The position numbers were made by a program, and so were the translations under genes. Of a stretch of 64,000 nt of DNA, positions 12,090 to 34,151 are shown piece after piece (positions within the stretch are counted from its first letter, which is position 1; each line of letters opens with the position of its first letter). Under the pieces are notes generated by a model. It had not been told where the DNA came from, made no database searches, and saw nothing but the letters and a program-made list of their open reading frames with translations. The DNA comes from Maritimibacter sp. GTDB lineage: Bacteria > Pseudomonadota > Alphaproteobacteria > Rhodobacterales > Rhodobacteraceae. The stretch covers positions 124,001 through 188,000 of the forward strand of contig JAABTN010000001.1 in the NCBI GenBank assembly GCA_011389895.1, in the 5' to 3' direction.

Positions 12090-12103
12090 AACATAATGTT
12101 ATG
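12087..12103. promoter_or_regulatory. Perfect 17-bp LysR-type operator overlapping the regulator's start codon
   Basis: CATAACATAATGTTATG is perfectly symmetric (8-1-8) and contains the T-N11-A core expected for LysR regulators. The first three bases are the complement of the regulator's ATG (12087-12089). A related half-site (AACATTAG) occurs at 12113-12120, toward the dioxygenase gene, and could be the activation site. Confidence 0.65.
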
Positions 12104-12172
12104 TTGCAGGAGAACATTAGAATAATCAAGCTGGCTCGGCGGCGTATCCTCTACCTTAGGGAAGAGGAAAAG

Positions 12173-13036: not shown

Positions 13037-13059
13037 CAGGAGGAAAAAGGGAGCGAACC

Positions 13060-14025: not shown

Positions 14026-14036
14026 AGGGCTGAGCG

Positions 14037-15742: not shown

Positions 15743-15767
15743 ACGACAAAAAAGGGAGGACCAAGAC

Positions 15768-17048: not shown

Positions 17049-17109
17049 GTTAGGCCACAGGGCGGCCCGACAGACAGCCGGGCCGCCCGACACGAGGGAG
17101 GAGATCGGG

Positions 17110-18626: not shown

Positions 18627-18648
18627 CAGGGAAGAAAGGGAGCGGTCG

Positions 18649-19512
18649 ATGATCTGGATTGAAACCATCGTGCAGGGCGTGCTGCTCGGCGGGCTGTATG
18701 CGCTCTTCGCGGCGGGGCTGAGCCTCGTCTTCGGGATCATGCGGCTCGTGAACCTCGCCCACGGCGACCTGATCGTGATGGGCGCTTACCTGATCCTCGT
18801 CGTGGTGTCGGTCTCGGGTCTGAACCCCTTCTTCGCGGCGCTTGTCGCCGCCCCGTTTATGTTCACCGTCGGCTGGATCCTTCAAAGAGCGGTGCTGAAC
18901 CGCACGTTGGGCGAAGATATCCTGCCGCCGCTCCTCGTGACCTTCGGCTTGTCGGTCGTCATTCAGAACACGCTTCTCGAAGGATTTACGGCGGACAGCC
19001 AGCGGCTTTCGATGGGGCCGCTCGAGACGGCGTCTGTCAATGTCGGCCCGATCACGATGGGCACGCTGCCGATCCTGACATTCGGCTCGGCAATCGTGGT
19101 GATCCTCGTGCTCAACTGGATTTTTTACCGCACCGCCATCGGGCGGGCGTTTCGGGCGACCTCGGACGATCCCGTGACCGCGAGCCTCATGGGTATCCGG
19201 CCCGACCGGGTCTTTGCCACCGCCATGGGTCTCGCATTGGTCGTGGTGACCATCGCTGCGCTCTATCTCGGCACGCGGTCGAATTTCGACCCCTATGTCG
19301 GCCCTGCGCGCCTTATCTATGCGTTCGAAGCGGTCATCATCGGCGGGCTCGGCTCACTTTGGGGGACGCTTGCAGGCGGGATCATCATCGGCGTGGCGCA
19401 GACCTTGGGCGCGGCCATCAATCCTGAATGGCAGATCCTTGCAGGCCACGTCGCCTTCCTGATCGTGCTACTTGTCCGCCCGCGTGGCCTGTTTCCGAGG
19501 GCGTTCGACTGA
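18649..19512 (+). CDS. LIV-type ABC transporter permease (LivH-like)
   Basis: The 287-residue polytopic membrane protein has the LivH hallmark GLYALFAAGLSLVFGIMRLVN near the N-terminus, then several hydrophobic helices and FEAVIIGGLGSLWGTLAGG near the C-terminus, the coupling region for the ATPases. ATG 18649 follows GAAAGGGAG. Its stop overlaps the start of the next permease gene. Confidence 0.9.
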   Translation: MIWIETIVQGVLLGGLYALFAAGLSLVFGIMRLVNLAHGDLIVMGAYLILVVVSVSGLNPFFAALVAAPFMFTVGWILQRAVLNRTLGEDILPPLLVTFGLSVVIQNTLLEGFTADSQRLSMGPLETASVNVGPITMGTLPILTFGSAIVVILVLNWIFYRTAIGRAFRATSDDPVTASLMGIRPDRVFATAMGLALVVVTIAALYLGTRSNFDPYVGPARLIYAFEAVIIGGLGSLWGTLAGGIIIGVAQTLGAAINPEWQILAGHVAFLIVLLVRPRGLFPRAFD

Positions 19513-20555
19513 TGACCCAGACTTATACTGCATCCGCCCGGACGCGTGCGGGAACGCTCAGCGGGATCGCGGCGCTGATCCTCCTCGTGGTGGCGATCGT
19601 CCTGCCATCCTTCGCCTCCCGTAGCCTGATCCAGGATCTGTTCTTTATCCTGACCATGCTGACCCTCGCGCAATTCTGGAACCTGCTCGCGGGTTACACG
19701 GGCCTTGTCAGCGTGGGCCAGCAGGCCTTCGTCGGGTTCGGCGCCTACATGCTGTTCGGGGCGACGATCCTTTGGGGGGTGAACCCGGTCGCGGCGTTGT
19801 TCATGTCGGGTGTTTTCGCGCTGCTCCTTGCAATTCCCACGGCCTTTTTCGCCTTTCGCCTGAGCGGCGCTTATTTCGCCATCGGCACATGGGTCGTGGC
19901 CGAGGTCGTGCGCCTTTGCGTCGCGCAATGGCAGGCGGTGGGCGGCGGCACCGGCACGTCTATGCCGCGCGACGCGCGGGACGCGATGTGGGGCGTGGAA
20001 TGGATCGAGATCCTGTTCGACGTCCGTTCCTCGGCGGCCCGTGACATCCTTGCCTATTGGCTGGCGCTGGCGCTGGCGGCGGCGACGATCGGCGGCATCT
20101 ACTGGTTTTTGCGGACCCGCCGCGGATTGGCGCTCGCCGCGTTGCGCGATAACGTCGAGGCGGCCAAGTCCACCGGTGTGGACGCGACCCGCATGAAGTG
20201 GATCGTCTTCCTTGTCGCCGCTTTCGGGACGGGCATCGCGGGCGGTTTGATCTTCATGCAAAATGGTCGCATCAGCCCGGACAGCGCATTCTCGGTCACC
20301 GAATGGACGGCCTTCGTCATCTTCATCGTGGTGATCGGCGGGATCGGCACGCTTGAAGGACCGATTATCGGCGTGCTGGTGTTTTTCTTCCTGCAGGAGC
20401 TCATGGCCGATTTCGGCGCCGTCTACCTGATCGTGCTTGGCCTGCTGGGCATCGCGATCATGCTGTTCGCGCCAACCGGGCTTTGGGGGTTCTTCGCCAA
20501 ACGCACGGGCATCGCGCTTTTTCCAACACAACGCAGGCTTGAGACAAAGCGCTGA
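19512..20555 (+). CDS. LIV-type ABC transporter permease (LivM-like)
   Basis: The 347-residue polytopic protein has LivM landmarks: LAQFWNLLAGYTGLVSVGQQ, YFAIGTWVVAEV, and the cytoplasmic loop RRGLALAALRDNVEAAKSTGVD followed by FIVVIGGIGTLEGPIIG. It starts at ATG 19512 inside the stop of the upstream permease gene, so the pair is translationally coupled. Together with the binding protein and the two ATPases it completes one importer, probably for the aromatic substrate of the surrounding pathway. Confidence 0.9.
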   Translation: MTQTYTASARTRAGTLSGIAALILLVVAIVLPSFASRSLIQDLFFILTMLTLAQFWNLLAGYTGLVSVGQQAFVGFGAYMLFGATILWGVNPVAALFMSGVFALLLAIPTAFFAFRLSGAYFAIGTWVVAEVVRLCVAQWQAVGGGTGTSMPRDARDAMWGVEWIEILFDVRSSAARDILAYWLALALAAATIGGIYWFLRTRRGLALAALRDNVEAAKSTGVDATRMKWIVFLVAAFGTGIAGGLIFMQNGRISPDSAFSVTEWTAFVIFIVVIGGIGTLEGPIIGVLVFFFLQELMADFGAVYLIVLGLLGIAIMLFAPTGLWGFFAKRTGIALFPTQRRLETKR

Positions 20556-20597
20556 CCTGCGGGACGCGCCCAGATATGATAGAGGAGACTTTGGATC

Positions 20598-22352
20598 ATG
20601 GCTGACCTGACGACGGACGTTCTCATCATCGGCACGGGGCCCGCCGGCAGCGCGACCGGCGCGCTCCTGTCGAGTTACGGTGTCGAGAATATTGCGATCA
20701 ACCGGTACCGCTGGCTTGCCAACACCCCGCGTGCGCATATCACCAACCAGCGCACGATGGAGGTGTTGCGCGACCTTGGTCGTGACGTCGAGGACGAGGC
20801 TTATCTTTTCGCGACCGAGCGCGACCTGATGGGCAATAACGTCTTCTGCGAAAGCCTTGCGGGCGAAGAGCTTGGCCGGATGCACAGCTGGGGCAATGCG
20901 CCGGAATCGAAGGCAGAGCACGAAATATCCTCGCCCTGCAAAATGAATGACCTGCCGCAGACCTTCATGGAACCGCTCCTGTTCAAGACTGCCTGCGCGC
21001 GCGGAACGCAGGCGCGCATGTCCACCGAGTATCTCTCGCACGAGGAGGACGCCGAGGGCGTGACGACCACCTGCCGCGACCGGTTGTCGGGGCGGGAGAT
21101 CAAGATCCGCTCGAAGTTCCTTGTCGGCGCCGATGGCGGCAACTCTCTCGTGGCCGAGAACGCAGGCCTGCCGTTCGAGGGGGAGATGGGCGTTGGTGGG
21201 TCGATGAACATCCTGTTTCGCGCCGATCTGTCGCGCCACGTCGCGCACCGGCCTTCGGTCCTCTACTGGGTCATGCAGCCCGGCGCGAACGTGGGGGGTA
21301 TCGGCATGGGGCTCGTGCGTATGGTGCGGCCTTGGAACGAATGGCTGATCGTCTGGGGCTATGACATCAACGAACCCGCACCAGAGGTCGACGAGGCCTA
21401 TGCCACCGAAGTCGCGCGTCAGCTCGTCGGTGATCCGGACCTTGAGATCGACCTGATCTCGGCCAACACCTGGACCGTCAACAACATGTACGCCAAGCAT
21501 ATGCAGACCGATCGGGTCTTTATCATGGGCGATGCCGCCCATCGGCACCCGCCCTCGAACGGTCTTGGGTCAAACACTTCGATCCAGGATGCCCATAACC
21601 TCGCGTGGAAGCTTGCCCATGTTCTCAAAGGCGCGGCCGGGCCCGAGCTTTTGAAAAGCTATTCGCAGGAACGCGCGCCGATCGCGAAGCAGATCGTGAC
21701 CCGCGCCAACCAATCCATCGGTGAATTCGGCGCGATCTTCGAAGCTTTGGGCATGACCGACACGGTCGATCCGGTGAAGATGCAGCAGAACATGGACAAG
21801 CGGTGCAATTCCGGCGCCGACGCCGAGGCGCAGCGTGACGCGTTGCGAAAGGCCATCGCGTTCAAGAAGTATGAGTTCGACTGCCACGGCGTCGAGATGA
21901 ACCAACGCTACGACAGTGGCGCGGTCGTCAAGGACGATCATCCCGATCCCGGGTTCCCGCGCGACGCGGAATTGCACTACCAGCCGACAACATGGCCCGG
22001 TGCACGCATTCCGCATTGCTGGCTTTTCGGGGAAGACGGGGCAAAGATCTCGACCCTCGATCTCTGTGGCAAGGGGCGCTGGACAATCCTGACCAGCATC
22101 GGCGGGGAAGCCTGGGCCCGCGCGGCGGAAACCGTGGGGCAGGAGATGAACATCGAGATCGACGTCTGCGTCATCGGCCCGAGGATGCCGGTGCAGGATC
22201 ATCTTGGGGATTGGGCGCGGGTCCGGGAAACGGGCGACAGTGGTGCGGTCATGACCCGGCCCGACCAACATGTCTGCTACCGCGCTGCCACCATGGCTGC
22301 CGACCCCGAGGCCGAGCTGCGCCGCGTGCTGTCGGCCATTTTGCAACCGTAA
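20598..22352 (+). CDS. FAD-dependent phenol/resorcinol-type monooxygenase (TfdB/PheA-like)
   Basis: The 584-residue class A flavin monooxygenase has the FAD motif IIGTGPAGSATG near residues 10-21, the DG motif LVGADGGNS and the GD motif VFIMGDAAHRHPP with the GLGSNTSIQDAHNLAWKL helix. The C-terminal thioredoxin-like domain places it with 2,4-dichlorophenol 6-monooxygenase, phenol 2-monooxygenase and resorcinol hydroxylases. It would hydroxylate a phenolic ring using NAD(P)H and O2, and here could make hydroxyquinol from resorcinol. It directly precedes the second hydroxyquinol dioxygenase gene, which supports that reading. The exact phenol is not determined. Confidence 0.87.
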   Translation: MADLTTDVLIIGTGPAGSATGALLSSYGVENIAINRYRWLANTPRAHITNQRTMEVLRDLGRDVEDEAYLFATERDLMGNNVFCESLAGEELGRMHSWGNAPESKAEHEISSPCKMNDLPQTFMEPLLFKTACARGTQARMSTEYLSHEEDAEGVTTTCRDRLSGREIKIRSKFLVGADGGNSLVAENAGLPFEGEMGVGGSMNILFRADLSRHVAHRPSVLYWVMQPGANVGGIGMGLVRMVRPWNEWLIVWGYDINEPAPEVDEAYATEVARQLVGDPDLEIDLISANTWTVNNMYAKHMQTDRVFIMGDAAHRHPPSNGLGSNTSIQDAHNLAWKLAHVLKGAAGPELLKSYSQERAPIAKQIVTRANQSIGEFGAIFEALGMTDTVDPVKMQQNMDKRCNSGADAEAQRDALRKAIAFKKYEFDCHGVEMNQRYDSGAVVKDDHPDPGFPRDAELHYQPTTWPGARIPHCWLFGEDGAKISTLDLCGKGRWTILTSIGGEAWARAAETVGQEMNIEIDVCVIGPRMPVQDHLGDWARVRETGDSGAVMTRPDQHVCYRAATMAADPEAELRRVLSAILQP

Positions 22353-22390
22353 TCCCGCGCCGCCGCGGCCACCGAATGAAAGGGCAGTAT

Positions 22391-23275
22391 ATGAATACCC
22401 GAGAAAGCGGCTATTTCACCGAAGACGCCTCTGCCGAAGTTGTCGTCGCGCGCAACGCGGGCGGCGAAGATGAACGGCTCAAACAGGTGATGGAGGTCAT
22501 CACGCGTCATCTTCACGACGCGGTAAAGGAAATCGAGCCGACGCAGGAGGAATGGTTCAAGGCGATCATGTTCCTTACCGATACCGGCCACATGTGTAAC
22601 GAGTGGCGGCAGGAATTCATCCTGCTCTCTGATGTGCTTGGCGTTTCGATGCTGGTCGACGCGATCAACAACCGAAAACCTTCGGGTGCGTCTGAATCAA
22701 CCGTGCTGGGGCCGTTCCACGTCGCGGGCGCGCCGGAACTCCCGTTGGGTTCGAACATCTGCCTTGATCAGAAGGGCGAGCCGATGCTGGTCCGTGGCCG
22801 CATATTGGACACCGCTGGCAATCCGATCGCCGGGGCGAAGATCGACGTCTGGCAGGCCAATGACGAAGGGTTTTACGATGTCCAACAAAAGGGCATCCAG
22901 CCGGACTTCAACCTGCGGGGCGTGTTCCGTTCGGACGCGAACGGGGCATACTGGTTCCGCGGCGTGAAGCCCAAGTTCTACCCGATCCCGGACGATGGTC
23001 CTGTGGGCAAGCTTCTCGCGTCGCTCGGACGCCATCCCTTTCGGCCAGCGCATCTTCACTACATCATCCAAGCCGACGGTTTCGAGGAATTGACGACCCA
23101 CATTTTCGACCCGGACGATCCCTATATCCAATCCGATGCCGTCTTTGGCGTGAAAGAGAGCCTGATGGCGGAGTTTGTCCCGGTCGAGGACCCAGCCCGC
23201 GTCGCAGAAGCCGGGTTCGACGGCCCGTACCTCGAAGTCGAGCACGATTTCGTTCTTGCGTCGAAGAAGAATTAG
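22391..23275 (+). CDS. Intradiol dioxygenase, hydroxyquinol 1,2-dioxygenase (copy 2)
   Basis: The 294-residue protein has Tyr162, Tyr197, His221 and His223 as iron ligands (FYDVQ, KFYPIP, RPAHLHY), nearly the numbering recalled for the structurally characterised hydroxyquinol dioxygenase of Nocardioides. The LTDTGHMCNEWRQEFILLSDVLGVS segment is also typical. It cleaves hydroxyquinol to maleylacetate. It is clearly a different lineage from copy 1 at 12.2-13.0 kb. ATG 22391 follows AAAGGG and is preferred over the ATG 15 bases upstream. It closes the long plus-strand catabolic and transport operon. Confidence 0.9.
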   Translation: MNTRESGYFTEDASAEVVVARNAGGEDERLKQVMEVITRHLHDAVKEIEPTQEEWFKAIMFLTDTGHMCNEWRQEFILLSDVLGVSMLVDAINNRKPSGASESTVLGPFHVAGAPELPLGSNICLDQKGEPMLVRGRILDTAGNPIAGAKIDVWQANDEGFYDVQQKGIQPDFNLRGVFRSDANGAYWFRGVKPKFYPIPDDGPVGKLLASLGRHPFRPAHLHYIIQADGFEELTTHIFDPDDPYIQSDAVFGVKESLMAEFVPVEDPARVAEAGFDGPYLEVEHDFVLASKKN

Positions 23276-23428
23276 GCGACGGGTTCGCGCCCCAAGACAT
23301 CACGTCCGGCCCCGGGGCCTTCGTCCATCGCGCCGGATGAGCCAAGTGGTTGACCCGGCGCGATCTTTGCCAAAGTCACGGACCCCGCGTGGCGATGAGC
23401 GCGAGGCGCTTGCAGCATTAGGCGTCAA

Positions 23429-24118
23429 TCATGCCAGGTCTTTGGGGCAGATCAAGTCGGTCACGGGGCCGTCTGTATGCAGGCGCGCGCCGGTCAGCGA
23501 TTGCAGGTCGTCCATGGGGATTGACGGGACCTTTTCGCGCACCACGAAATGTTCGTTCTCGATGTCGATCACGGCGAGCGAGCTATAGACCCGCGTCACG
23601 CAGCCCACGCCGGTGAGCGGCATGGTGCAGGCCTCGACCAGTTTCGGGTCGCCCTTTTTCGTCACGTGATCGGTGAGCACCGCGATGCGTTTGGCCGATT
23701 GCACGAGGTCCATCGCGCCCCCGACCGCCGGGATGCCGCCCTTGCCGGTGGACCAGTTGGCCAGATCGCCGTTTTGCGCGACCTGGTAGGCGCCCAGCAC
23801 GGCAAGGTCGAGGTGACCGCCGCGCACCATGGCGAAACTGTCGGCATGGTGGAAAAAGCTCGTCCCCGGCTTCAACGTGATCGCCTTTTTCCCGGCGTTG
23901 ATCAGGTCCCAGTCTTCGTCCCCCAGCGCCGGGGCCTTGCCGAAGTCCAAGACGCCGTTCTCGGTATGAAAGACCGCCTGCTTTCCTTCTGGTTGGAACC
24001 GGGCCACCATTTCGGGAAACCCGATGCCGAGGTTTACGTAGGCCCCGTCTTCGATGTCCTGCGCGGCCCGCCACGCGATCTGGGCGTTGGACAGCTTGAT
24101 GTCGGTGATGTCGATCAT
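23429..24118 (-). CDS. pcaJ: 3-oxoadipate CoA-transferase subunit B
   Basis: The 229-residue protein is a family I CoA-transferase beta subunit with the catalytic glutamate Glu53 in the HTENGVLDFG motif and the downstream SFAMVRGGHLDLAVLGA segment. With subunit A it moves CoA from succinyl-CoA to 3-oxoadipate. The context (maleylacetate reductase producing 3-oxoadipate) favours this substrate over acetoacetate, but the family is close and the distinction is inferred. It is convergent with the second hydroxyquinol dioxygenase gene and overlaps the subunit A gene by four bases. Confidence 0.85.
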   Translation of the reverse strand: MIDITDIKLSNAQIAWRAAQDIEDGAYVNLGIGFPEMVARFQPEGKQAVFHTENGVLDFGKAPALGDEDWDLINAGKKAITLKPGTSFFHHADSFAMVRGGHLDLAVLGAYQVAQNGDLANWSTGKGGIPAVGGAMDLVQSAKRIAVLTDHVTKKGDPKLVEACTMPLTGVGCVTRVYSSLAVIDIENEHFVVREKVPSIPMDDLQSLTGARLHTDGPVTDLICPKDLA

Positions 24119-24822
24119 GGGTAAACGGCCTCCGCCCGGTTGAGCTCTTCTTCCTGCGCGGGATTGGCGACTTCGACGAGGTGATCGACGAAGATGCCCG
24201 GCGTGATGACATGCTCCGGGTCGATGCCCCCGAGCGGCACGATGTTCGAGACCTGCGCGATGGTCGTGGTCGCCGCCGTCGCCATGAGCGGATTGAAATT
24301 CCGCGCCGCCATCCGGTAGGTCATGTTGCCGTGTGCGTCGCCCAACGCGCCTTTGATAAGCGCGACATCGGCCTTGAGCCAGCGTTCCTGCACATAGGAG
24401 CGCCCGTCGAATTCGGCGATCGGCTTGCCCTCGGCCACTTCGGTGCCGAAGGCGGTCGGGGTGTAGAATGCGGGAATACCCGCGCCGCCCGCGCGTATGC
24501 GTTCGGCCAGCGTGCCTTGCGGCACAATCTCAAGCGCGATCTTGCCCGCCGTGTAGCAGTCCACGAAAACGCTCGGATCGGCGGAACGGGGGAAGGAACA
24601 GATCAGCTTGTCGACACGGCCTTGTTCGATCAGCGCGGCGAGGCCGACATGACCGTTTCCCGCGTTGTTGTTCACCACCGTCAGGTGTTTCGCCCCGTGG
24701 TCGATCAGTGCGTGAATAAGCTCGATCGGCGCGCCCGAGCCGCCGAAACCGCCGATCATTACGGTCGCCCCATCGGGGATTGCCGCGACAGCTTCGGCGG
24801 GGGTCTGAATGGTCTTGTCCAT
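24115..24822 (-). CDS. pcaI: 3-oxoadipate CoA-transferase subunit A
   Basis: The 235-residue alpha subunit has the CoA-transferase glycine motif MIGGFGGSGAP (about residues 22-32) and the VVNNNAGNG and IAEFDGRSYVQERWLKADVALIKG segments. The start ATG at 24822 is preceded by an ideal AGGAGGA. Its operon partner pcaJ begins within its stop codon. The operon is divergent from the IclR-type regulator at 24925, the usual arrangement for pca genes. Confidence 0.87.
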   Translation of the reverse strand: MDKTIQTPAEAVAAIPDGATVMIGGFGGSGAPIELIHALIDHGAKHLTVVNNNAGNGHVGLAALIEQGRVDKLICSFPRSADPSVFVDCYTAGKIALEIVPQGTLAERIRAGGAGIPAFYTPTAFGTEVAEGKPIAEFDGRSYVQERWLKADVALIKGALGDAHGNMTYRMAARNFNPLMATAATTTIAQVSNIVPLGGIDPEHVITPGIFVDHLVEVANPAQEEELNRAEAVYP

Positions 24823-24924
24823 GACAGTCCTCCTTTGCGTCCCGGTTAAGCGGGGTCGGGCAGGCGGGCCAGAGTTTTCGTTCATATGTTGACCTTTGTT
24901 CAGATCGCGCATTTCATTGTGCGC
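24823..24924. promoter_or_regulatory. Divergent promoter region of pcaIJ and the IclR-type regulator
   Basis: About 100 bases separate the two start codons. Toward the regulator, TTGACC (24889-24894), a 17-base spacer and TTTCAT (24912-24917) form a plausible sigma70-like promoter. Its start point would fall at or very near the ATG at 24925. GTTCA-like repeats at 24880 and 24898 could be parts of an IclR operator. These are sequence readings only. Confidence 0.35.
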
Positions 24925-25686
24925 ATGGTGAACAAAACGACGGATGTCATCGCCTCGCTCGCCAAGGGGCTTCAGGTCATCGAGTGCTTCGGGGCCGAGA
25001 CCCCGCGCCTGACGATCACCGATGTGGCGCGGCGCACGGGGCTGGATCGCGCGACGGCGCGGCGCTGTTTGCTGACGCTGCATCATCAGGGCTATGCGGA
25101 CTACGATGGCAAGTTCTTCACGCCCACGCCGAATATCCTCCGCCTCGGGATGGGGGCGCTGGCCGCGCTGCCGCTGCCGCAGATCGTGCAGCCGTGGCTG
25201 GATCATCTGTCCGAGCAGATCGGGGCATCCACATCGGTGTCGATCCTTGATGAGACCGAGATCGTCTACCTCGCCCGTGCGGCGCAAAAGCGCGTCATGT
25301 CCATCGGGCTCATGCCCGGATCGCGGCTTCCCGCCCATTGCACCTCGATGGGCCGGGTTTTGCTGGCGGCCTTGCCCGAGGACGCGGCGCGGGCGTTGAT
25401 CGAGCGGTCCGACCTGTCCCCACGCACACCACGCAGTCTGACAGCTCCCGGCGACATCATGGAAGAACTCGACCGTGTGCGAATACAGGGGTTCGCCATC
25501 ATAGATCAAGAGGTCGAATTGGGCCTGCGGTCGATCGCGGTGCCCTTGTTCAATGCGCAGGGCGCGGTCGTCGCGGCGCTCAATACCGGCGTTTCGGCGG
25601 TGCAGGAGGACGCGGCGGACTTGAAAGCACTCTATCTCAACGCGCTGCGCCAGACGCAGGCGGGATTGCAACGGGTCCTGTTCTAA
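24925..25686 (+). CDS. IclR-family regulator, PcaR-like
   Basis: The 253-residue protein (from ATG 24925, MVNKTTDVI) has an IclR winged helix (ITDVARRTGLDRATARRCLLTL) and the effector domain with SVSILDETEIVYLARA, LPAHCTSMGRVLLAALP and GFAIIDQEVELGLRSIAVPL. This combination is typical of the PcaR/PobR branch that responds to 3-oxoadipate or 4-hydroxybenzoate. Divergence from pcaIJ supports a role in controlling the CoA-transferase genes. An in-frame ATG at 24886 would add 13 residues, but the shorter start matches the family better. It ends near a strong hairpin that separates it from a convergent LysR gene. Confidence 0.85.
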   Translation: MVNKTTDVIASLAKGLQVIECFGAETPRLTITDVARRTGLDRATARRCLLTLHHQGYADYDGKFFTPTPNILRLGMGALAALPLPQIVQPWLDHLSEQIGASTSVSILDETEIVYLARAAQKRVMSIGLMPGSRLPAHCTSMGRVLLAALPEDAARALIERSDLSPRTPRSLTAPGDIMEELDRVRIQGFAIIDQEVELGLRSIAVPLFNAQGAVVAALNTGVSAVQEDAADLKALYLNALRQTQAGLQRVLF

Positions 25687-25772: not shown

Positions 25773-26672
25773 TCACGCGCTCAGGTCCTCCGCCAGCATG
25801 TCGACGAAGCGCTCGGCACTGTGCGATAGCGTATGGCGGCGGCGGGTTACAAGGCCAGCGGCGCGGGTGATGACCGGATCGACAAGCCGTATTCTGCGGA
25901 TGCCGGGTGCGGGCTGGGCGTGGGCGAGGCGACTGGGGAGGACGGCCAACCCTATGTTACAGGCAGACATCCAGGCAGCACTTCCCAAGAAGCCGACTTC
26001 CGCGACGACGCGGGGCCGGATGCCGAGTTTGACCAGCGTGGTTTCGACCATGCCGCGCACACCGTAGTCACGACGCGACAGGATAAGGGGTTCATTTTCA
26101 AGTTCACGCCATCCCACGCTGTCGCGGTCGGCAAAGGGGTGGTCCGAGGCGCAAATGATGCACAGGGGATCGTGGTGCAGGCTTACCCAGTCGAGCGCGG
26201 ACTTATCCTCGGGCTCGGTCCCGATCCCGAAATCCGCCCGCTGTTCGATGATGTTTGAATAGAACTGGTCCGGCGCGCAGTCGTCGAGGATCAGGCTTAC
26301 CGCCGGATAGGATTCGCGATACCGGCGCACCGTATCCGGCAAGAGGGTCAAACCCGTCGCCGGGGTCGCGGTCAGCCGGATGCGGCCACGTTCCAGGTCA
26401 CGAAGCCCCCGAATGGTTTCTTCGACCGTCGACAGATCGCCCAGAATACGGTCGACCAGACCGATCACGCTTTCTGCAGCATCGGAGGGCGACAGAGACC
26501 GTGTGGTGCGGTCGAAAAGTGTTGCGCCCAATACGGTTTCTGCCTGCCTTACAAGGACACTGGCCGCTGATTGCGTGATGTTGAGCGCTTCGGCGGCCGC
26601 CGAGATCTGGCCTGTGCGGTAGACCTGCTGGATTGCCCGAAGCTGTTTCAGAGTGAGGCTTGATACCGACAT
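25773..26672 (-). CDS. LysR-family regulator divergent from the TAXI-TRAP cluster
   Basis: The 299-residue protein has a LysR N-terminus (LKQLRAIQQVYRTGQISAA, then ALNITQSAASVLVRQAETVLG) and a substrate-binding-like effector domain with GRIRLTATPATGLTLLP. It is divergent from the TRAP solute-binding gene, 131 bases away, so it most likely controls the uptake and decarboxylase/monooxygenase operon. A dyad (ATTCAT-N7-ATGAAT) lies just upstream of its start. Confidence 0.87.
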   Translation of the reverse strand: MSVSSLTLKQLRAIQQVYRTGQISAAAEALNITQSAASVLVRQAETVLGATLFDRTTRSLSPSDAAESVIGLVDRILGDLSTVEETIRGLRDLERGRIRLTATPATGLTLLPDTVRRYRESYPAVSLILDDCAPDQFYSNIIEQRADFGIGTEPEDKSALDWVSLHHDPLCIICASDHPFADRDSVGWRELENEPLILSRRDYGVRGMVETTLVKLGIRPRVVAEVGFLGSAAWMSACNIGLAVLPSRLAHAQPAPGIRRIRLVDPVITRAAGLVTRRRHTLSHSAERFVDMLAEDLSA

Positions 26673-26803: not shown

Positions 26804-27811
26804 ATGTTTATGAAAATCAAAGGGCTCGCTTTTGCGGCCTGCGCCATTGCGGCGACTGGACTTTCAACGACCGATGCCGACGCCCAAGGGCGTGTGACGA
26901 TCGGGACCAATCCGCAGGGCTCGCTCTACTACACCATCGGCAGCGGCATCGCGGCTGCATTGCAGGAGGCAATGCAGCGCCAAGTGACCGTGCAGCCGTT
27001 TACCGGCTCGTCCGTCTATCTTCCGCTGATTTCGGCGGGCGAGGTCACAGTCGGGCTGAACTCGGCCATTGATGCGGGCGGCTGGTATAGTGGTGCGACC
27101 TCGGGCGAAGCACTGACCGATCTTCGCGTGCTGGCGCGCCTGTGGCCCTTGCGTCAGGCATACGTCACCCGCGCTAACGACGACATGACCGAAGTGAAAG
27201 ACCTCGCAGGGAAACGCACGGTCGTGGATATGACCGCGCTCACCGGCGTGACGGCGGTGAACCGTGCTACCATTCAAGCAGGCGGTCTGTCGCTGGATGA
27301 TGTGGAAGCGGTGGAAGTGTCCGGTCTCAAGGCGGGCCTCGATGCGCTGGTTGAAGGCAACCTGGATGCGACCGCAGCCGCCATCGGTATTCCGCTGACA
27401 CAGCAGGCGAACGCGTCCATTCCGGGCGGTATTCGGTATCTGAGCCTGACCGGTGAGAACGCGACCGAAGCCTTCTTTTCGGAGACCCTTCCGGGGGTCT
27501 ATCCGCTTGAAGTCGGACCCAACCCCGCGATGCCAGAAATCACCGAGCCGGTCGTTGTCTCGGCTTACGATATTTTCCTGACGACGAGTGCGGCGCTGTC
27601 GGATGAAGAGGCGACCGCTGTTCTGACGGCGCTTTACGAGGCCTTCCCGCAGTTGCGCGAAGATTATCCGCCGCTGCGTGGCGGTGCGCAGGACGCATTG
27701 GGGAGCGCGACCAACACGGTGCCCTATCACCCCGCCGCCGTTGCCTTTTTCCAGGAAAAAGGTTTGTGGACCGACGCGAACGATACCCGCGAAGCAAGTT
27801 TTAGCGAGTAA
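26804..27811 (+). CDS. TAXI-family TRAP transporter solute-binding protein
   Basis: The 335-residue periplasmic protein has a Sec signal peptide (MFMKIKGLAFAACAIAATG, cleavage near ADAQ) and the TAXI fold (VTIGTNPQGSLYYTIGSGIAAAL, AITVQPFTGSS-like segment, and DLAGKRTVVDM). TAXI proteins deliver small carboxylates to fused TRAP permeases. The context of decarboxylase and flavin monooxygenase genes suggests an aromatic carboxylate. ATG 26804 follows AGGGAGGACT. A strong stem-loop separates it from the permease gene. Confidence 0.9.
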   Translation: MFMKIKGLAFAACAIAATGLSTTDADAQGRVTIGTNPQGSLYYTIGSGIAAALQEAMQRQVTVQPFTGSSVYLPLISAGEVTVGLNSAIDAGGWYSGATSGEALTDLRVLARLWPLRQAYVTRANDDMTEVKDLAGKRTVVDMTALTGVTAVNRATIQAGGLSLDDVEAVEVSGLKAGLDALVEGNLDATAAAIGIPLTQQANASIPGGIRYLSLTGENATEAFFSETLPGVYPLEVGPNPAMPEITEPVVVSAYDIFLTTSAALSDEEATAVLTALYEAFPQLREDYPPLRGGAQDALGSATNTVPYHPAAVAFFQEKGLWTDANDTREASFSE

Positions 27812-27820
27812 TTGGCTGGC

Positions 27821-27867
27821 GGCGGCGGCCAAGGCCCGGCCCGGGCCGCCGCCCCATGTATTTTTTA
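27821..27867 (+). terminator. Intercistronic stem-loop with T-tract between TRAP binding protein and permease
   Basis: GGCGGCGGCC (27821-27830) pairs perfectly with GGCCGCCGCC (27844-27853), and a TATTTTTTAA tract follows shortly. The structure resembles a leaky terminator or mRNA-stabilising element that would keep the binding protein more abundant than the membrane subunit. Confidence 0.6.
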
Positions 27868-27922
27868 ATTCCGATGAACGCCCACAGTGTTCATCGCCCC
27901 TCGTATCACCCCGGAGCTTTTG

Positions 27923-29842
27923 ATGCGCGTCTTTGCCGCCATTCTTGCCGCGTGCCTTCCTCTGCTCGGTATCGCCTGGATCTTCAACCTGCCCGAGATG
28001 TTCGGGCAGGTGTATATCACCGAGCAATACCTCGCGGTGATCCTTGGCCTGACGGTGCTGGCCGGTCTGGTGCTCAAACGTCAGCCGCCCGTTCCGTTCG
28101 CTGTGGATCTTCTGTTTGGCATCGGCGCGCTTGCGGGCTGGTGGTGGCTTGCGCTGAATTATCAGGACTGGCTCTTGGACCCGGTCAATCGGGGGCCCGA
28201 GAAATGGGTGCCCGCCGTGATCGGCATTGTCGGGCTATTCGAGGCGACCCGGCGACATTGCGGTCTGGTTCTGAGCCTGCTTGGCGTCGGCTTCATGGTC
28301 TATGGCTTCATTGGCCATTTCGCGCCGGGCATTTTCGAGGCCGCGTATCTCTCGCCGCCGCGATACCTTCTTTACGTTTACAATGACTCGAACGGCGTGC
28401 CGGGGTTGGTGCTTGGCGTTGGTGCGACGCAGATCTTGGGGTTCATCGTCTTCGGTGCCGTCCTGACCGGTGTCGGAGGCTCGGCGGCGATGACCGACCT
28501 CGCCATGGCTGCGATGGGGCACCGGCGCGGAGGCCCGGCCAAGGTCGCGATCTTTGCCTCGTCGCTCTTTGGCACGCTCTCCGGTTCGACCGTGGCGAAT
28601 GTCATGTCCACCGGGGTGGTGACGATCCCGATGATGAAGAAAAGTGGCTGGCCGTCACGCTATGCGGGTGCCATCGAAGCGGTGGCCTCCAACGGGGGTC
28701 AGATTGCACCGCCCGTCATGGGCGCAACCGCCTTCATCATCGCCGAATTCTTGCAGATTCCCTATGCCCAAGTGGTGCTTGCGGCACTTCTGCCCGCCGC
28801 CTTTTATTACCTCCTGCTCTATCGTCAGGTGGACAGCTATGCCGCCGCGAATGGTCTGCACGGTGAGCCGCGCGAGACGCTTCCGCGCATGGGGGCGGCC
28901 CTTAAGGGCAGCGCGCCCTTGGTCCTGCCGCTTGGCGTGTTGATGTATTTCCTGTTCTGGCTTGGATACGCGCCCGGTAAATCGGCGCTTTATTCGTCCG
29001 GGGCGGCTCTTGCCCTCTATCTCGCCACCAAGGGTCGCGCCCTTTCGGGTTTGAAAGAGCTTCCGGGTATCCTGGTGCGGGCGGGTGAAACGCTGATCCC
29101 GATCCTGCTTGTCTGTGCCGTTGCGGGCATCATCATCGGCACCATCAACGTGACGGGGCTTGGCTTCGCGCTGACCCTCGCGCTTGGCAAGATCGCCGAG
29201 CTTGGTGGGGTGTTTCCGCTCTTGGCCACGACCGCAGTGATCGCCATCGTTCTGGGGGTCGGGATGCCGACGTCCGGGGTTTACGTGGTGGTCGCGGTGC
29301 TTTTGGCGCCTGCCTTGGTGCGCAACGGGATCGACATCACCTCTGCACATCTCTTCATTCTCTATTTCGGCCTGCTGTCCATGCTGACACCGCCGGTCGC
29401 CATCGCAAGCTATGCGGCGGCCTCGATCGCCAAGAGCGACATGTGGCAGACCGGCGTGACCGGGGTGCGGCTGGCGTTTGTGGCCTATCTTTTGCCCTTC
29501 GTCTTCGCCTTCAACCCGGCTCTGATCATGAACGGCACATGGCTTGAGATCGGCGTGTCTTGCATCACGGTCTACGCGGGCGGGCATGTATTGGCCGAAG
29601 TGCTTGCGCGCAAAAGCGCCTTTGGGGGCGGCTGGTCACGCTGGGCCGCTGCCGCTGGCGGGCTGCTTCTCTTCAGCGCCACTGCCATTGTCGCCCCGGC
29701 GACCCCTTGGGCCATTGGCGCGGCGCTTATCGGCATCGCGCTTTTGATCCTTCTCGCTGTTCAGTCCCGTCGCGGGGCCGCGCCGCAAACCGAAATTTCC
29801 AATGAAACCCTGAACAAAGGAGCGAAAGATGCCCGATCATAA
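27923..29842 (+). CDS. TRAP transporter fused permease (DctQM-type, TAXI partner)
   Basis: This 639-residue polytopic protein combines the small and large TRAP membrane subunits, as is usual for TAXI systems. Landmarks are FGTLSGSTVANVMSTGVVTIPMMKK, AVASNGGQIAPPVMGATAF and VLGVGMPTSGVYVVVAVL, all characteristic of the DctM ion and substrate path. Transport is driven by a sodium or proton gradient. The ATG at 27923 follows CCGGAG and starts with a membrane helix; a GTG 36 bases upstream is less likely. The next gene overlaps its 3' end, so the transporter and decarboxylase are co-expressed. Confidence 0.9.
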   Translation: MRVFAAILAACLPLLGIAWIFNLPEMFGQVYITEQYLAVILGLTVLAGLVLKRQPPVPFAVDLLFGIGALAGWWWLALNYQDWLLDPVNRGPEKWVPAVIGIVGLFEATRRHCGLVLSLLGVGFMVYGFIGHFAPGIFEAAYLSPPRYLLYVYNDSNGVPGLVLGVGATQILGFIVFGAVLTGVGGSAAMTDLAMAAMGHRRGGPAKVAIFASSLFGTLSGSTVANVMSTGVVTIPMMKKSGWPSRYAGAIEAVASNGGQIAPPVMGATAFIIAEFLQIPYAQVVLAALLPAAFYYLLLYRQVDSYAAANGLHGEPRETLPRMGAALKGSAPLVLPLGVLMYFLFWLGYAPGKSALYSSGAALALYLATKGRALSGLKELPGILVRAGETLIPILLVCAVAGIIIGTINVTGLGFALTLALGKIAELGGVFPLLATTAVIAIVLGVGMPTSGVYVVVAVLLAPALVRNGIDITSAHLFILYFGLLSMLTPPVAIASYAAASIAKSDMWQTGVTGVRLAFVAYLLPFVFAFNPALIMNGTWLEIGVSCITVYAGGHVLAEVLARKSAFGGGWSRWAAAAGGLLLFSATAIVAPATPWAIGAALIGIALLILLAVQSRRGAAPQTEISNETLNKGAKDARS

Positions 29843-30875
29843 CCCAAACCCGCCCTATAAACGGATCGCCACGGAGGAAGCGTGGCTTCCGCAGGAGATC
29901 ATGGACCTCTACCGGGCCGAAGTGCGCGACAAGGACATTAACGAACCGGGCTTTCAGGCGCTCTGGGGCTTTTTCGCAGGCGACAACCCGATTGCGAAAG
30001 ACCACAACCGCCGCATCGTCGATCTGGGCGAGGAACGGCTGGCCGATATGGACAGGGCCGGCATCGACATCGCGGTTCTGTCCCTCTCATCGCCGGGGGT
30101 TCAGATTTTCGACGCGGCCACGGCGACAAGCCTTGCCCAGCGCGCAAATGACGAACTGTCCGAAGGAATTGCCAAGAGCCCGGACCGTTTCGTCGGTCTC
30201 GCCGCGTTCTCACCGCTCGACGCCGAAGGGGGCGCGAAGGAGCTTGAGCGCGGGGTCACGAAGCTTGGCCTGCGCGGTGGTATCCTGAACTCCCACACGC
30301 TTGGCACCTATATGGATGATGAGAAATACTGGGCCGTTTTCGAAGCCGCCGAAGCGCTCGGCGTGCCGATCTACCTGCACCCGAACACGCCGTCGCCGCA
30401 GATGTTGGAGCCGTTCCTGTCGCGTGGTCTTGACGCCGCCGTGTATGGCTTCTCCTGCGAGACCGGGCTGCATGCGCTGCGCCTGATCGTGTCGGGTCTG
30501 TTCGATCGTTTCCCGAAGCTTCAGATCGTTCTGGGTCATACGGGCGAGGCGTTGCCGTTCTGGCTCTATCGTCTCGACTTCATGCACACGCGCTTGTCGA
30601 ACTCGAACCGGTATCCGGGTGTTGGGCCGCTCAAGCGCAAGATGTCGGACTACTTGCGCGAGAACTTCTATTACACCTCGTCGGGTGTCGGTGATCCGAA
30701 ACCTGTCATGTATGTGCAGGATGTGATCGGCGCGGACCGGATGATGTATGCGATGGATTATCCGTGGCAGTACGTCGTCGAAGAAACCGCATATTTCGAC
30801 GCCATGCCGGTGCCGCCCGAAACGCTCAAAGCGTTTTATGAGGACAATGCACGCAAGGTCTTCGGCATCAAATGA
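29829..30875 (+). CDS. ACMSD-superfamily amidohydrolase, o-hydroxybenzoate decarboxylase type (LigW/resorcylate-like)
   Basis: The 348-residue TIM-barrel protein has the metal set of non-oxidative aromatic decarboxylases: the Glu pair at 16-17 (ATEEAW, in place of the HxH motif), His184 (YLHPNTP), His237 (LGHTGE) and Asp310 (AMDYPW). Gamma-resorcylate and 5-carboxyvanillate decarboxylases share this pattern. The LVSGLFDRFPKLQIVLGHTGE-type region and the DYLRENFYYTSSG segment strengthen the match. The likely reaction is loss of CO2 from an ortho-hydroxybenzoate imported by the preceding TRAP system, giving a phenol for the following monooxygenase. The precise substrate is unknown. The gene overlaps the permease gene by 14 bases. 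Confidence 0.82.
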   Translation: MPDHNPNPPYKRIATEEAWLPQEIMDLYRAEVRDKDINEPGFQALWGFFAGDNPIAKDHNRRIVDLGEERLADMDRAGIDIAVLSLSSPGVQIFDAATATSLAQRANDELSEGIAKSPDRFVGLAAFSPLDAEGGAKELERGVTKLGLRGGILNSHTLGTYMDDEKYWAVFEAAEALGVPIYLHPNTPSPQMLEPFLSRGLDAAVYGFSCETGLHALRLIVSGLFDRFPKLQIVLGHTGEALPFWLYRLDFMHTRLSNSNRYPGVGPLKRKMSDYLRENFYYTSSGVGDPKPVMYVQDVIGADRMMYAMDYPWQYVVEETAYFDAMPVPPETLKAFYEDNARKVFGIK

Positions 30876-32521
30876 CGGAGCTTTCGGCAGACATCTTGAT
30901 TGTTGGCGCGGGTCCGGTGGGATTGACGCTGGCGATGGAGCTGGACCGGCGCGGGGTTTCCTCGCTGGTCGTGGAAGAGCGGTCTGCGGGTGAAGCCCCC
31001 AGCGTGAAGTGCAACCACGTATCGGCGCGCTCCATGGAGATTTTCCGCGGCCTTGGTATCGCCGACCGCATCCGCTCTGCCGGTCTGCCGGATGACTATC
31101 CCCACAGCGTCAGCTACCGGACCACACTCACGGGGCGCGAGATCACCCGTGTTCCCATCCCGTCACGCGCGGGGCGGGAGCGCGGGGATCCCGGGCCGGA
31201 TACCGATTGGCCGACGCCGGAGCCGCCGCACAGGATCAACCAGATTTTTCTCGAACCGATCCTGTTCGAGGCTGCGCTGGAGCGTAGCGGTATCGAGGTG
31301 GTGAATGAGGCCAGTGTGACCGGTTTTACCGATTACGGGGATCATGTCGTGGCGACGATTGTCCGGGAAGATGGCCAGACCCAATTGGCAAAATGCAGGT
31401 ATCTGGTGGGCTGCGATGGCGGCAGGTCTCAGGTCCGGCGCGAAATTGGCGCATCGCTGCATGGCGATGCCGTCGTGCAGCGGGTGCAATCGAGCTATAT
31501 TCGCGCGCCCGGATTGATCGGGAAGATGGAGGTGCCGCCGACATGGGGCATGTTCGCTTATAATCCGACGCGGACAGGGGTGGTCTACTCCATCGACGGG
31601 CGTGAGACATGGCTCGTGCACAATTATCTGCGCGATGAAGAAGAGGATTTCGACAGTGTCGACCGGGATTGGGCCATTCGCCAAATCCTCGGCGTGGATG
31701 AGGCTTTCGCGTATGAAATCCTCGCCAATGAGGATTGGTTCGGGCGGCGGCTGGTCGCGGACAAATTGCGCGAAGGAAATGTCTTTATCTGCGGTGATGC
31801 GGCGCATCTTTGGGTGCCTTATGCGGGCTACGGGATGAATGCGGGCATCGCGGATGCTCACAACCTGGCCATGCATATGGGCGGGGTATTCGCAGGCTGG
31901 GCCGCGCCGGACGCGCTCGACGCACACGAGGCCGAACGCCTGCCGATCACCGAGCAGGTTTCGCATTTCGCGATGAATCACGCGCATGAAATGGCCCGCA
32001 GACGCAAGGCTGTGCCGCCCGAGATCGACGATGACGCACCGGAAGGGGTGGCCGCCCGCGAGGCCGCGGGACGCGCGCTCTTTGATCTGAACGTGCAGCA
32101 ATATTGCTGTGCCGGTCTGAACTTTGGCTACTACTACGAAGGGTCACCGGTGATTGCGATGGACGGCACCCCGCCGCCCTATTCAATGGGCAGCTTCACG
32201 GCGTCGACCGTGCCCGGCGCGCGGCTACCGAATGTTGCGATGGGCGATGGCCGGTGGCTTTATGACGTTCAAGGCCCGGGCTTCGCGCTGGTGCGCACCG
32301 ACCCTTCGGTTGAGGCAGAGCGCTTGTTGAACGCGATGCGGGGGGCTGGCATCCCGGTTACGTTGATCGACCTCTCCAACGCTCCCGCACCATACGCGGA
32401 AGCTCTCGTGCTTGCGCGTCCTGACAACCATATCGCGTGGCGTGGCCATACCGTCCCGACCGATCCGACCGCATTGATCGATACCCTGCGCGGCGTGCGG
32501 ACGGCGGAGGCGATCGCATGA
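30872..32521 (+). CDS. FAD-dependent aromatic monooxygenase
   Basis: The 549-residue class A flavoprotein hydroxylase has ILIVGAGPVGLTLAMELDRRG (FAD ADP-binding), LVGCDGGRSQVRREIG (DG motif) and VFICGDAAHLWVPYAGYGMN (GD motif), plus a C-terminal thioredoxin-like region. Relatives hydroxylate phenols or 3-(3-hydroxyphenyl)propionate. Its start overlaps the decarboxylase stop (ATGA), and its own stop overlaps the next amidohydrolase start. The product of decarboxylation is therefore probably its substrate, and a hydroxyquinol-type product would feed the upstream ring-cleavage genes. That link is inference from context. Confidence 0.86.
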   Translation: MTELSADILIVGAGPVGLTLAMELDRRGVSSLVVEERSAGEAPSVKCNHVSARSMEIFRGLGIADRIRSAGLPDDYPHSVSYRTTLTGREITRVPIPSRAGRERGDPGPDTDWPTPEPPHRINQIFLEPILFEAALERSGIEVVNEASVTGFTDYGDHVVATIVREDGQTQLAKCRYLVGCDGGRSQVRREIGASLHGDAVVQRVQSSYIRAPGLIGKMEVPPTWGMFAYNPTRTGVVYSIDGRETWLVHNYLRDEEEDFDSVDRDWAIRQILGVDEAFAYEILANEDWFGRRLVADKLREGNVFICGDAAHLWVPYAGYGMNAGIADAHNLAMHMGGVFAGWAAPDALDAHEAERLPITEQVSHFAMNHAHEMARRRKAVPPEIDDDAPEGVAAREAAGRALFDLNVQQYCCAGLNFGYYYEGSPVIAMDGTPPPYSMGSFTASTVPGARLPNVAMGDGRWLYDVQGPGFALVRTDPSVEAERLLNAMRGAGIPVTLIDLSNAPAPYAEALVLARPDNHIAWRGHTVPTDPTALIDTLRGVRTAEAIA

Positions 32522-33486
32522 TCGTTGATGTTCATACGCATATGGTGACGGAAGACTACCTCGACCTTCTGCGCCGGGAAGGGGGGCCGACTTACGCCTT
32601 CCGAACGTTGCCGAGCGGCGGTGAAGTGATCGACAAGGCGGGCGTGCCGTTCTTCACGCTTCTGCCCCCGATGTGGGATTTCGATCAGCGTATCCGCGAT
32701 ATGGACGCGGCCGGCGTGGACGTGGCGGTGATCTCGCTGACGTCGCCAAATGCGATATTCGCGGACACGGAATTAAGCCGCAAAGCAGCCTGGATGATGA
32801 ACGATGCTTTTGCCGAGGCGCGCACGGCCCACCCGGATCGCCTTCGCTGGTTCGCGTCGCTTCCGTGGACCGACACCATGGCAGCGGTCGAAGAGTTGGG
32901 GCGTGCCGTGAAATTGGGAGCGTCGGGCGTGATCGCGGTCGCGACCGTGGACGGCGCCCCTTTGACCGATCCGGCCTATGCGCCGATTTGGTCGGCCATC
33001 GACAAGGCCGGGTTGCCGGTCTTCTTGCACCCTTCGGTGCCGCCCGGTGAAAAGGCGTTGGGTCTGGATCAATACAACCTGTCACCACCTGTCGGCTTCG
33101 TCTTCGACACGACCCTCGCCATCAGCCGGATGCTCTATGACGGGTTTTTCGAACGCTACCCGAACCTGCGGATGATCCTGGCGCACGGCGGCGGCACCTT
33201 GCCGTTTCTCATCGGGCGTCTGGACCATTGTCACCAAAATATCCCGGCCTGTAGCACGGGCACCAATCATCCACCGTCAGACTTCCTCGACCGGTTTTAC
33301 CTCGACAGTGTCGTGTTCACCAAAGGTGCTCTCGACCTTTGTATCGAGACGGTTGGCCCCGACCGCATTCTGTTTGGTTCCGATTATCCGCACAACATCG
33401 GCGATATGGCAGGGCGGCGAGAATTGCTCGAAGCGAATTCGACGCAGCACCGGAAAACGGCGGCCGACCTGTTCGGCCTGGGATAG
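32518..33486 (+). CDS. Amidohydrolase of the ACMSD family with canonical HxH metal site
   Basis: The 322-residue protein has the metal residues His6 and His8 (DVHTH), His171 (FLHPSVPP), His223 (LAHGGG) and Asp289 (GSDYPH), matching 2-amino-3-carboxymuconate-semialdehyde decarboxylase and relatives. It could decarboxylate a ring-cleavage product or an aromatic acid, or hydrolyse a related compound. It is the last gene of the TRAP/monooxygenase operon and starts inside the monooxygenase stop codon. Two different ACMSD-type enzymes flanking one monooxygenase suggest two decarboxylation or hydrolysis steps in one route. Confidence 0.83.
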   Translation: MIVDVHTHMVTEDYLDLLRREGGPTYAFRTLPSGGEVIDKAGVPFFTLLPPMWDFDQRIRDMDAAGVDVAVISLTSPNAIFADTELSRKAAWMMNDAFAEARTAHPDRLRWFASLPWTDTMAAVEELGRAVKLGASGVIAVATVDGAPLTDPAYAPIWSAIDKAGLPVFLHPSVPPGEKALGLDQYNLSPPVGFVFDTTLAISRMLYDGFFERYPNLRMILAHGGGTLPFLIGRLDHCHQNIPACSTGTNHPPSDFLDRFYLDSVVFTKGALDLCIETVGPDRILFGSDYPHNIGDMAGRRELLEANSTQHRKTAADLFGLG

Positions 33487-34061: not shown

Positions 34062-34151
34062 TGGCGGAGGAGGTGGGATTCGAACCCACGGTACGCTTTC
34101 ACGCACGCCGGTTTTCAAGACCGGTGCATTCGACCACTCTGCCACTCCTCC
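34062..34151 (-). tRNA. tRNA-Ser with UGA anticodon
   Basis: Read on the minus strand the 90-base gene has a GGAGGAG/CTCCTCC acceptor stem, discriminator G, encoded CCA end (34062-34064), T-arm GGTTCGAATCC, a long variable arm typical of class II tRNAs, and an anticodon loop CTTGAAA giving anticodon TGA. Its 3' end points left, toward the catabolic region, and the SPOR-dacC-tmk block lies on its 5' side. Confidence 0.96.

Follow-up and report, generated by a model that had tools for sequence, protein, structure and literature searches.

What does a TAXI-TRAP transporter import when its permease gene runs into the gene of a decarboxylase-like amidohydrolase? This question is raised by a five-gene locus in a Maritimibacter-like genome (Rhodobacterales), which we analyzed within a stretch of 64,000 nt, referred to here as the window. 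The locus encodes a TAXI solute-binding protein, a fused TRAP permease, a first amidohydrolase (DEC1), an aromatic monooxygenase dependent on flavin adenine dinucleotide (FAD) (HYD), and a second amidohydrolase (DEC2), and is flanked by a divergent LysR regulator gene. We read it as an operon for the breakdown of a hydroxylated aromatic acid. The substrate that we infer is most likely a hydroxybenzene-dicarboxylate; the full scheme set out below is tentative and falls somewhat short of an even prospect. The interest of the locus lies in the conserved TAXI-DEC1 pair together with a repeated change of the DEC1 pocket alongside hydroxylases; an aromatic TAXI substrate (o-phthalate) is already known. 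Few TAXI ligands are known, and a conserved TAXI-decarboxylase pair narrows the ligand search.

Conservation of the TAXI-TRAP-DEC1 core

The TAXI and permease genes lie immediately upstream of DEC1 in 29 of the 37 other DEC1 loci, and because so many loci keep this arrangement, the association is beyond chance. This bears out the proposal of an earlier, sequence-only reading that import and a decarboxylase-type enzyme belong to a single unit. In three further loci (L024, L037, L038; L-numbers are the labels of the compared loci) a diverged TAXI-TRAP pair is found nearby in another arrangement, and L016 holds a piece of the permease at the contig end. Neither gene was found in the available DNA of the remaining four (L013, L019, L021, L022). 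On a plasmid of Roseinatronobacter sp. S2 the order is LysR-TAXI-TRAP, DEC1, and then unrelated genes. No match to the window TAXI or permease was detected at E 1e-12 in 28 loci from the LigW side of the family (L040-L067). A TAXI-linked amidohydrolase decarboxylase was not described in the literature searched, which mostly lacked subscription papers.

The DEC1 loci were gathered by means of exact peptide patterns and the best 80 of 108 candidates were kept, so the set is not a census. DEC1 loci were defined by at least 60% identity over at least 850 matched bases, and the 37 that qualified make up, with the window, the 38 DEC1 rows of the alignment; two of them (L030 and L038) are from the same organism. 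The DEC1 sequences closest to that of the window come from Maritimibacter (95% in M. alkaliphilus HTCC2654, 90 to 93% in others) and Anianabacter (90%). Excluded from the alignment were the partial locus L039, the duplicates L083-L089 and L094, and sequences that were below 41% identity or too short; sequences below 47% identity were excluded from the tree. Genes at the compared loci were called with a rough script, and some antisense open reading frames (ORFs) stand in for genes. Several loci are short (e.g., L013, 4.9 kb; L016, 5.1 kb), and since their DNA ends early, missing neighbors at such loci are not shown to be absent.

The divergent LysR gene, which the sequence-only reading had not mentioned, belongs to the operon unit and has relatives in 27 of the 37 loci. 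HYD and DEC2 are a local addition outside the conserved core: they follow DEC1 in the window and in five other loci (L004, L005, L006, L007, L035), so conservation does not support the unit in the extent given earlier, with the hydroxylase and the second amidohydrolase. The gap between the LysR and TAXI genes contains the inverted repeat ATTCAT-N7-ATGAAT. A looser form of this pattern was found in only L002 (the window copy), L004, and L008 among 25 gaps; the pattern recurs in too few gaps (3 of 25 including the window copy) for us to claim it as an operator. Scans for promoters and terminators found nothing beyond the level of shuffled sequence.

DEC1 resembles LigW and differs from it in the pocket

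The nearest solved relative of DEC1 is LigW, and gamma-resorcylate decarboxylase (3s4t, 2dvt) matches at E 3.7e-55. All 38 DEC1 rows have Glu19, His188, and Asp314, which bind the metal, and His241 and Arg252, which bind the carboxylate (LigW numbers; roles as described in excerpts of PMC8187880, PMC6031855, and PMC6305744). This set of residues fits a non-oxidative decarboxylase of the amidohydrolase superfamily; DEC1 is probably such an enzyme, and release of CO2 is predicted. In addition to the fold family, the Mn ligands, and the carboxylate-binding pair, DEC1 and LigW have Phe212 and Met256 in common.

The sequence-only reading had noted EEAW in the first amidohydrolase and HxH in the second, and both are there, as ATEEAW and DVHTHM, respectively. 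We rejected the interpretation of EEAW as a broken HxH site, because ATEEAW provides the Glu ligand of LigW-type enzymes. Nor does the pairing imply two different chemistries, as had been proposed, since the Glu-type enzymes LigW and gamma-resorcylate decarboxylase and the HxH enzyme iso-orotate decarboxylase are described with the same mechanism in the part of PMC8187880 available to us.

DEC1 was also rejected as a LigW orthologue, on the grounds of different pocket residues and a separate clade. In LigW, the C1 carboxylate of the substrate is bound through Tyr51 and Arg58 (PMC6305744, in part), and PMC8187880 (in part) gives a loss of four orders of magnitude in activity for the exchange Tyr317Ala. 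At these three positions the window DEC1 has Phe, Ile, and Trp. Phe51 and Trp317 are found in 38 of 38 DEC1 rows, whereas position 317 is Tyr in 28 of 28 LigW-group rows. In a tree of 63 proteins, the DEC1 clade (38 rows) and the LigW side (25 rows) fall on two sides of 100/100 branches. The window DEC1 thus differs from LigW in the Tyr51/Arg58 pair, in the ring-stacking Tyr317, and in its side of the tree, and the LigW-side loci also differ in having no window-like TAXI-TRAP matches.

These results bear on the possibility that DEC1 acts, like LigW, as a decarboxylase of 5-carboxyvanillate or 5-carboxyferulate and that the TAXI system imports these lignin-derived diacids. LigW is indeed the nearest solved relative, aldehyde dehydrogenase genes occur close to DEC1 in loci that include L024 and L034, with an RPE65-type gene in L034, as in the LigW pathway (PMC11323797, in part), and those DEC1 members that have Lys or Arg at position 58 could carry out such a decarboxylation. 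However, the three pocket replacements and the separate clade of the window DEC1 argue against it, as does the drop in activity of LigW Tyr317Ala, though Trp is a milder change than Ala. We consider this possibility improbable.

Gamma-resorcylate decarboxylase is likewise an amidohydrolase decarboxylase of the same mechanism class (PMC8187880, in part). Its Asn234, which contacts the second hydroxyl of the substrate according to an excerpt of PMC6305744, occupies the position of LigW Met256, and DEC1 has Met rather than Asn there in 38 of 38 rows.

As a separate observation, aldehyde dehydrogenase genes and a lignostilbene-dioxygenase-type (RPE65) gene are located downstream of DEC1 in Roseinatronobacter (L034, 11602-19733), and the same clusters occur around sphingomonad LigW-like genes.

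A change at positions 58 and 259 coincides with neighboring hydroxylases

Only two alignment columns, 58 and 259, split the DEC1 clade into two groups without overlap. Position 58 is Lys or Arg in 20 of the 38 rows (Lys in Pseudooceanicola, for example), all of which have His259, and is Ile, Leu, or Met in the other 18, window included, all of which have Arg259. In the window DEC1 these two residues are Ile55 and Arg255 by its own numbering. Judging from its spacing to Arg252 and Met256, residue 259 would face the pocket. The residue class at position 58 requires three changes on the tree, a number that the starred branches force, and we read these as three gains of Ile, Leu, or Met because the Arg of the LigW side is taken as ancestral. 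The class is clustered on the tree (0 of 500 shuffles were as low), with near-copies adding to the clustering.

The two groups also differ in their neighbors. Of the 18 Ile/Leu/Met-58 rows, 12 have an FAD monooxygenase gene no more than 6 kb from DEC1, as against none of the 20 rows with Lys or Arg at 58 (Fisher p 7e-6; this and the other Fisher value below overstate the case because the rows are related). HYD-type monooxygenases account for the window, L004, L005, L006, L007, and L035. Another group (cluster 8), whose members show 28 to 30% identity with HYD or with the other monooxygenase of the window, accounts for L008, where the gene is beyond LysR on its far side, and for L016, L017, L018, L030, and L073. 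In L013 a Rieske oxygenase gene precedes DEC1, and its nearest entries are terephthalate dioxygenase and salicylate 5-hydroxylase.

Ring-cleavage genes and the fate of the carbon

Genome searches for ring-cleavage genes covered 36 DEC1 genomes (those of L033 and L038 fall outside this set). LigA was found in 26 of the 36 genomes versus 30 of 290 in the window's family at large, and PcaH (protocatechuate 3,4-dioxygenase) scored above its cut-off in 16; one or the other is present in 34, the exceptions being L016 and L019. At E 1e-40, 18 of the 36 contain a match to the hydroxyquinol-type dioxygenase of the window, in many cases at low identity. Among the five-gene carriers, L004, L005, L006, and L035 have LigA and LigB but, at E 1e-40, neither PcaH nor a match to the window-type hydroxyquinol dioxygenase, with intradiol-type matches of 48 to 58 bits only; L007 has PcaH and a hydroxyquinol dioxygenase, with LigA and LigB absent. 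Each five-gene carrier therefore has LigA/LigB or PcaH, by which protocatechuate could be opened. On the window contig, 5 to 16 kb past the window end (L138, 5410-16372), are two LigA-LigB pairs, a LigC-like oxidoreductase, a PcaQ-like regulator (below cut-off), and PobA (above cut-off).

Two other products were set aside on weaker grounds. For catechol, no TIGR03211 match scored above the cut-off in 11 genomes, with matches below it in all 11. For gentisate, no gentisate 1,2-dioxygenase scored above the cut-off in the 11 genomes, with matches below it in two, one of them L035.

A different fate is suggested by a separate aromatic cluster at 12101-25686 of the window, which encodes two intradiol dioxygenases, an iron-containing alcohol dehydrogenase (Fe-ADH) of the maleylacetate-reductase type, a branched-chain-type ABC transporter, an HbpA/TfdB-like monooxygenase, and an IclR regulator. 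The imported acid could be a hydroxybenzoate mono-acid, which DEC1 would turn into a resorcinol-type phenol and hydroxylases into hydroxyquinol, with the adjoining intradiol dioxygenase, maleylacetate reductase, and coenzyme A (CoA) transferase completing the degradation. The dioxygenase in this cluster has 6-chlorohydroxyquinol 1,2-dioxygenase as its best match, a monooxygenase and a dioxygenase gene lie immediately upstream of LysR in L007, and in L018 DEC1 is followed by genes for a monooxygenase and for an Fe-ADH that shares 50% identity with that of the window; the lost basic residue at position 58 would also fit a lost second acid group. Yet four of the six five-gene genomes (L004, L005, L006, L035) are without a dioxygenase match at E 1e-40, and loss of the basic residue at 58 goes together with Arg259. 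On balance we consider this route unlikely, though not remote.

Judged by eye, ORFs at 23429-24860 of the window resemble a CoA transferase.

The TAXI protein and its probable ligand

The evidence leans to a hydroxybenzene-dicarboxylate as the acid bound by the TAXI protein. The characterized TAXI proteins VcGluP, TtGluBP, and BP0403 bind glutamate (PMC11574862 and PMC12344293, in part), so that the transporter might carry a non-aromatic acid, either glutamate or a dicarboxylate, with its place beside the enzymes incidental. Of the two critical VcGluP residues named in the part of PMC11574862 available to us, Tyr45 and Gln93, the latter lowers affinity 990-fold when exchanged for Ala. In an alignment, the window TAXI keeps Tyr45 but has Ser, Leu, Ala, and Ala in place of Gln93, Glu125, Tyr200, and Met201. 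The recurrence of the DEC1 linkage in loci with differing outer flanks also argues against incidental placement, and we regard a non-aromatic cargo as very improbable.

The sequence-only reading had called a TAXI system for an aromatic acid notable, few TAXI substrates being known. Such a system would not be a first, as uptake of o-phthalate by a TAXI-TRAP system is reported for Aromatoleum aromaticum EbN1 (PMC13040137, a review, in part), and the opaL/opaN genes of Pseudomonas PTH10 are proposed to encode a TAXI-TRAP system for o-phthalate (PMC6362003, in part). In EbN1 we located o-phthalate genes with a TAXI-TRAP set on plasmid 2 (locus L137); such genes are absent from the first 50 kb of plasmid 1. 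From the neighboring CoA-transferase and UbiD genes, we infer that the L137 genes are the published o-phthalate TAXI-TRAP system. Like the window, this locus has a TAXI gene and a fused permease gene beside aromatic-acid genes, and in both TAXI proteins the residue opposite VcGluP His123 is Trp, at a site that adjoins a small alignment gap. The systems are otherwise distant: the window TAXI is 22% and the permease 35% identical to its EbN1 counterpart, and the neighbors in EbN1 are CoA transferases and UbiD/UbiX genes, whereas those in the window are amidohydrolases.

In Anianabacter (L007, 16344-20996), the operon is closely followed downstream by a second, diverged TAXI-TRAP set, an IclR gene, and another amidohydrolase gene (29% identical to DEC2).

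Proposed scheme

In the scheme that we favor, the TAXI protein would capture the aromatic acid and the fused permease would import it. DEC1, in which Glu, His, and Asp would bind the Mn, would then remove the carboxylate ortho to a ring hydroxyl through proton transfer from Asp, in the manner of LigW. In the Lys/Arg-58 branch, the second carboxylate would be placed as in 5-carboxyvanillate, and a product of the 4-hydroxybenzoate type would enter general pathways. In the branch of the window, Arg259 would take over and the second acid group would be elsewhere, as in substrates of the 2-hydroxyterephthalate or 3-hydroxyphthalate type; the product, of the 3-hydroxybenzoate type, would need the HYD of the operon to become protocatechuate, whose ring could be opened by LigAB-type or PcaGH enzymes of the genome. 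A published route runs from 5-hydroxyisophthalate by way of 4,5-dihydroxyisophthalate to protocatechuate.

Several observations weigh against this scheme. With regard to the pocket, the position of residue 259 derives from helix spacing and not from coordinates. When Rieske genes are counted, the hydroxylase association becomes 13 of 18 versus 1 of 20 (p 2e-5), the single case being L019, with a Rieske match of 99 bits located 5.4 kb upstream. In five of the 18 Ile/Leu/Met-58 rows (L009, L010, L011, L028, L075) neither a monooxygenase nor a Rieske gene was found. Outside the DEC1 clade, a Geodermatophilus locus (L047, 10001-12825) has an Arg58 LigW-like gene followed by a cluster-8 FAD monooxygenase gene and no TAXI-TRAP genes, which shows that a monooxygenase neighbor can go together with a basic residue at 58.

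With regard to ring cleavage, the frequency of PcaH in DEC1 genomes stands without a control set, and the 36 DEC1 genomes span orders beyond those of the 290 control genomes. Among seven DEC1 carriers of the window's family (at least 62% identity), four have LigA and two (L007, L017) have none, and the seventh is a fragmentary genome; the p value of 0.003 for LigA in these carriers assumed that all seven were in the sample. LigA is also part of gallate-type enzymes. Extradiol matches below the catechol 2,3-dioxygenase cut-off occur in 11 of 11 genomes, at 195 to 304 bits in 10 of them, so other ring-opening routes are possible. The hydroxyquinol-type cluster adjoins the operon in the window and in L007, and DEC2 is without a role in the scheme.

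A broader claim is possible, though we hold it with more doubt than the scheme itself. TAXI and DEC1 may constitute a new two-part module for aromatic dicarboxylates, in which substrate choice would have switched three times in parallel through the move of one positive charge from position 58 to 259, in lineages that carry at least three kinds of neighboring ring hydroxylase; the five-gene form would then lead from a hydroxyphthalate or hydroxyterephthalate to protocatechuate by a route not yet described. The conserved pair limits the candidates to acids that fit both proteins, and therefore each protein can test the other. The 58/259 change supplies a natural series in which to study how amidohydrolase decarboxylases select among aromatic diacids, a class with breakdown products of lignin and plastic among its members and with uses in enzymatic carboxylation.

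HYD and DEC2

DEC2 has the HxH metal motif of ACMSD and shares with it (6mgt, 4ign) the AHGGG and SDYP motifs as well; among solved structures ACMSD is its closest relative by sequence, with iso-orotate decarboxylase also near. At the position that we take to be the substrate-binding Arg47 of ACMSD (human numbering), DEC2 aligns Phe, and chain 4ign itself has Ala. No NCBIfam family matched DEC2 at E 0.001. At E 1e-60, DEC2 relatives (40 to 52% identical) turned up in 14 of the 384 other genomes searched within the class, and the mixed neighbors of these relatives did not reveal the task of DEC2, which could possibly be a second decarboxylation or a hydrolysis. In L122 and L124 the relative has a MarR gene and a class-II-aldolase-type gene as neighbors; for one member of each pair the assignment comes from clustering.

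Some relatives occur near other TAXI-TRAP genes. In L132 (4876-12389) a HYD relative (60%) is placed between genes for a thiamine pyrophosphate (TPP)-dependent enzyme and a TauD-type protein, followed by TAXI-TRAP genes, and DEC1 was not found at this locus. TAXI-TRAP genes are present in three of four HYD-relative loci examined. In L120 (675-8007) a DEC2 relative (51%) lies near a TPP-dependent enzyme gene and TAXI-TRAP genes, and in L024 a TPP enzyme gene adjoins the permease gene.

Operon layout

The features of the operon are collected in Table 1. The TAXI-type binding protein and the fused permease pass their family thresholds, as does HYD as an FAD aromatic-ring hydroxylase. The permease gene is taken to start at a GTG, with an ATG at 27923 as a possible alternative.

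Table 1. Genes of the TAXI-TRAP-DEC1 operon and the divergent regulator gene (window coordinates)
Feature	Position	Strand	Evidence
LysR regulator	25773-26672	minus, divergent from operon	PF00126 + PF03466
TAXI solute-binding protein	26804-27811	+	TIGR02122 125.4 bits, cut-off 84.35
Fused TRAP permease	27887-29842	+	TIGR02123 491.5 bits, cut-off 320.65
DEC1, LigW-like Glu-type amidohydrolase, probable decarboxylase	29829-30875	+	PF04909; LigW 4inf/4qrn E 1.8e-101
HYD, FAD aromatic monooxygenase	30872-32521	+	PF01494 216 bits; NF004780 617.1 bits, cut-off 445
DEC2, HxH amidohydrolase	32518-33486	+	PF04909; ACMSD 6mgt E 3.2e-38, iso-orotate decarboxylase 4hjw E 4.1e-36

The five-gene order and the overlaps given by the sequence-only reading were recovered from the ORFs: 14 bases between the permease gene and DEC1, 4 bases (ATGA) between DEC1 and HYD, and 4 bases (ATGA, with the DEC2 ATG at 32518) between HYD and DEC2. 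Its description of the genes as one translational unit stands for these four; the TAXI gene is separated from the permease gene by 75 bases, and the argument for translational coupling therefore leaves it out. A tRNA-Ser gene is located at 34062-34151, ∼0.6 kb beyond the operon end, and may mark an insertion site, since the outer flanks of the operon vary among relatives.

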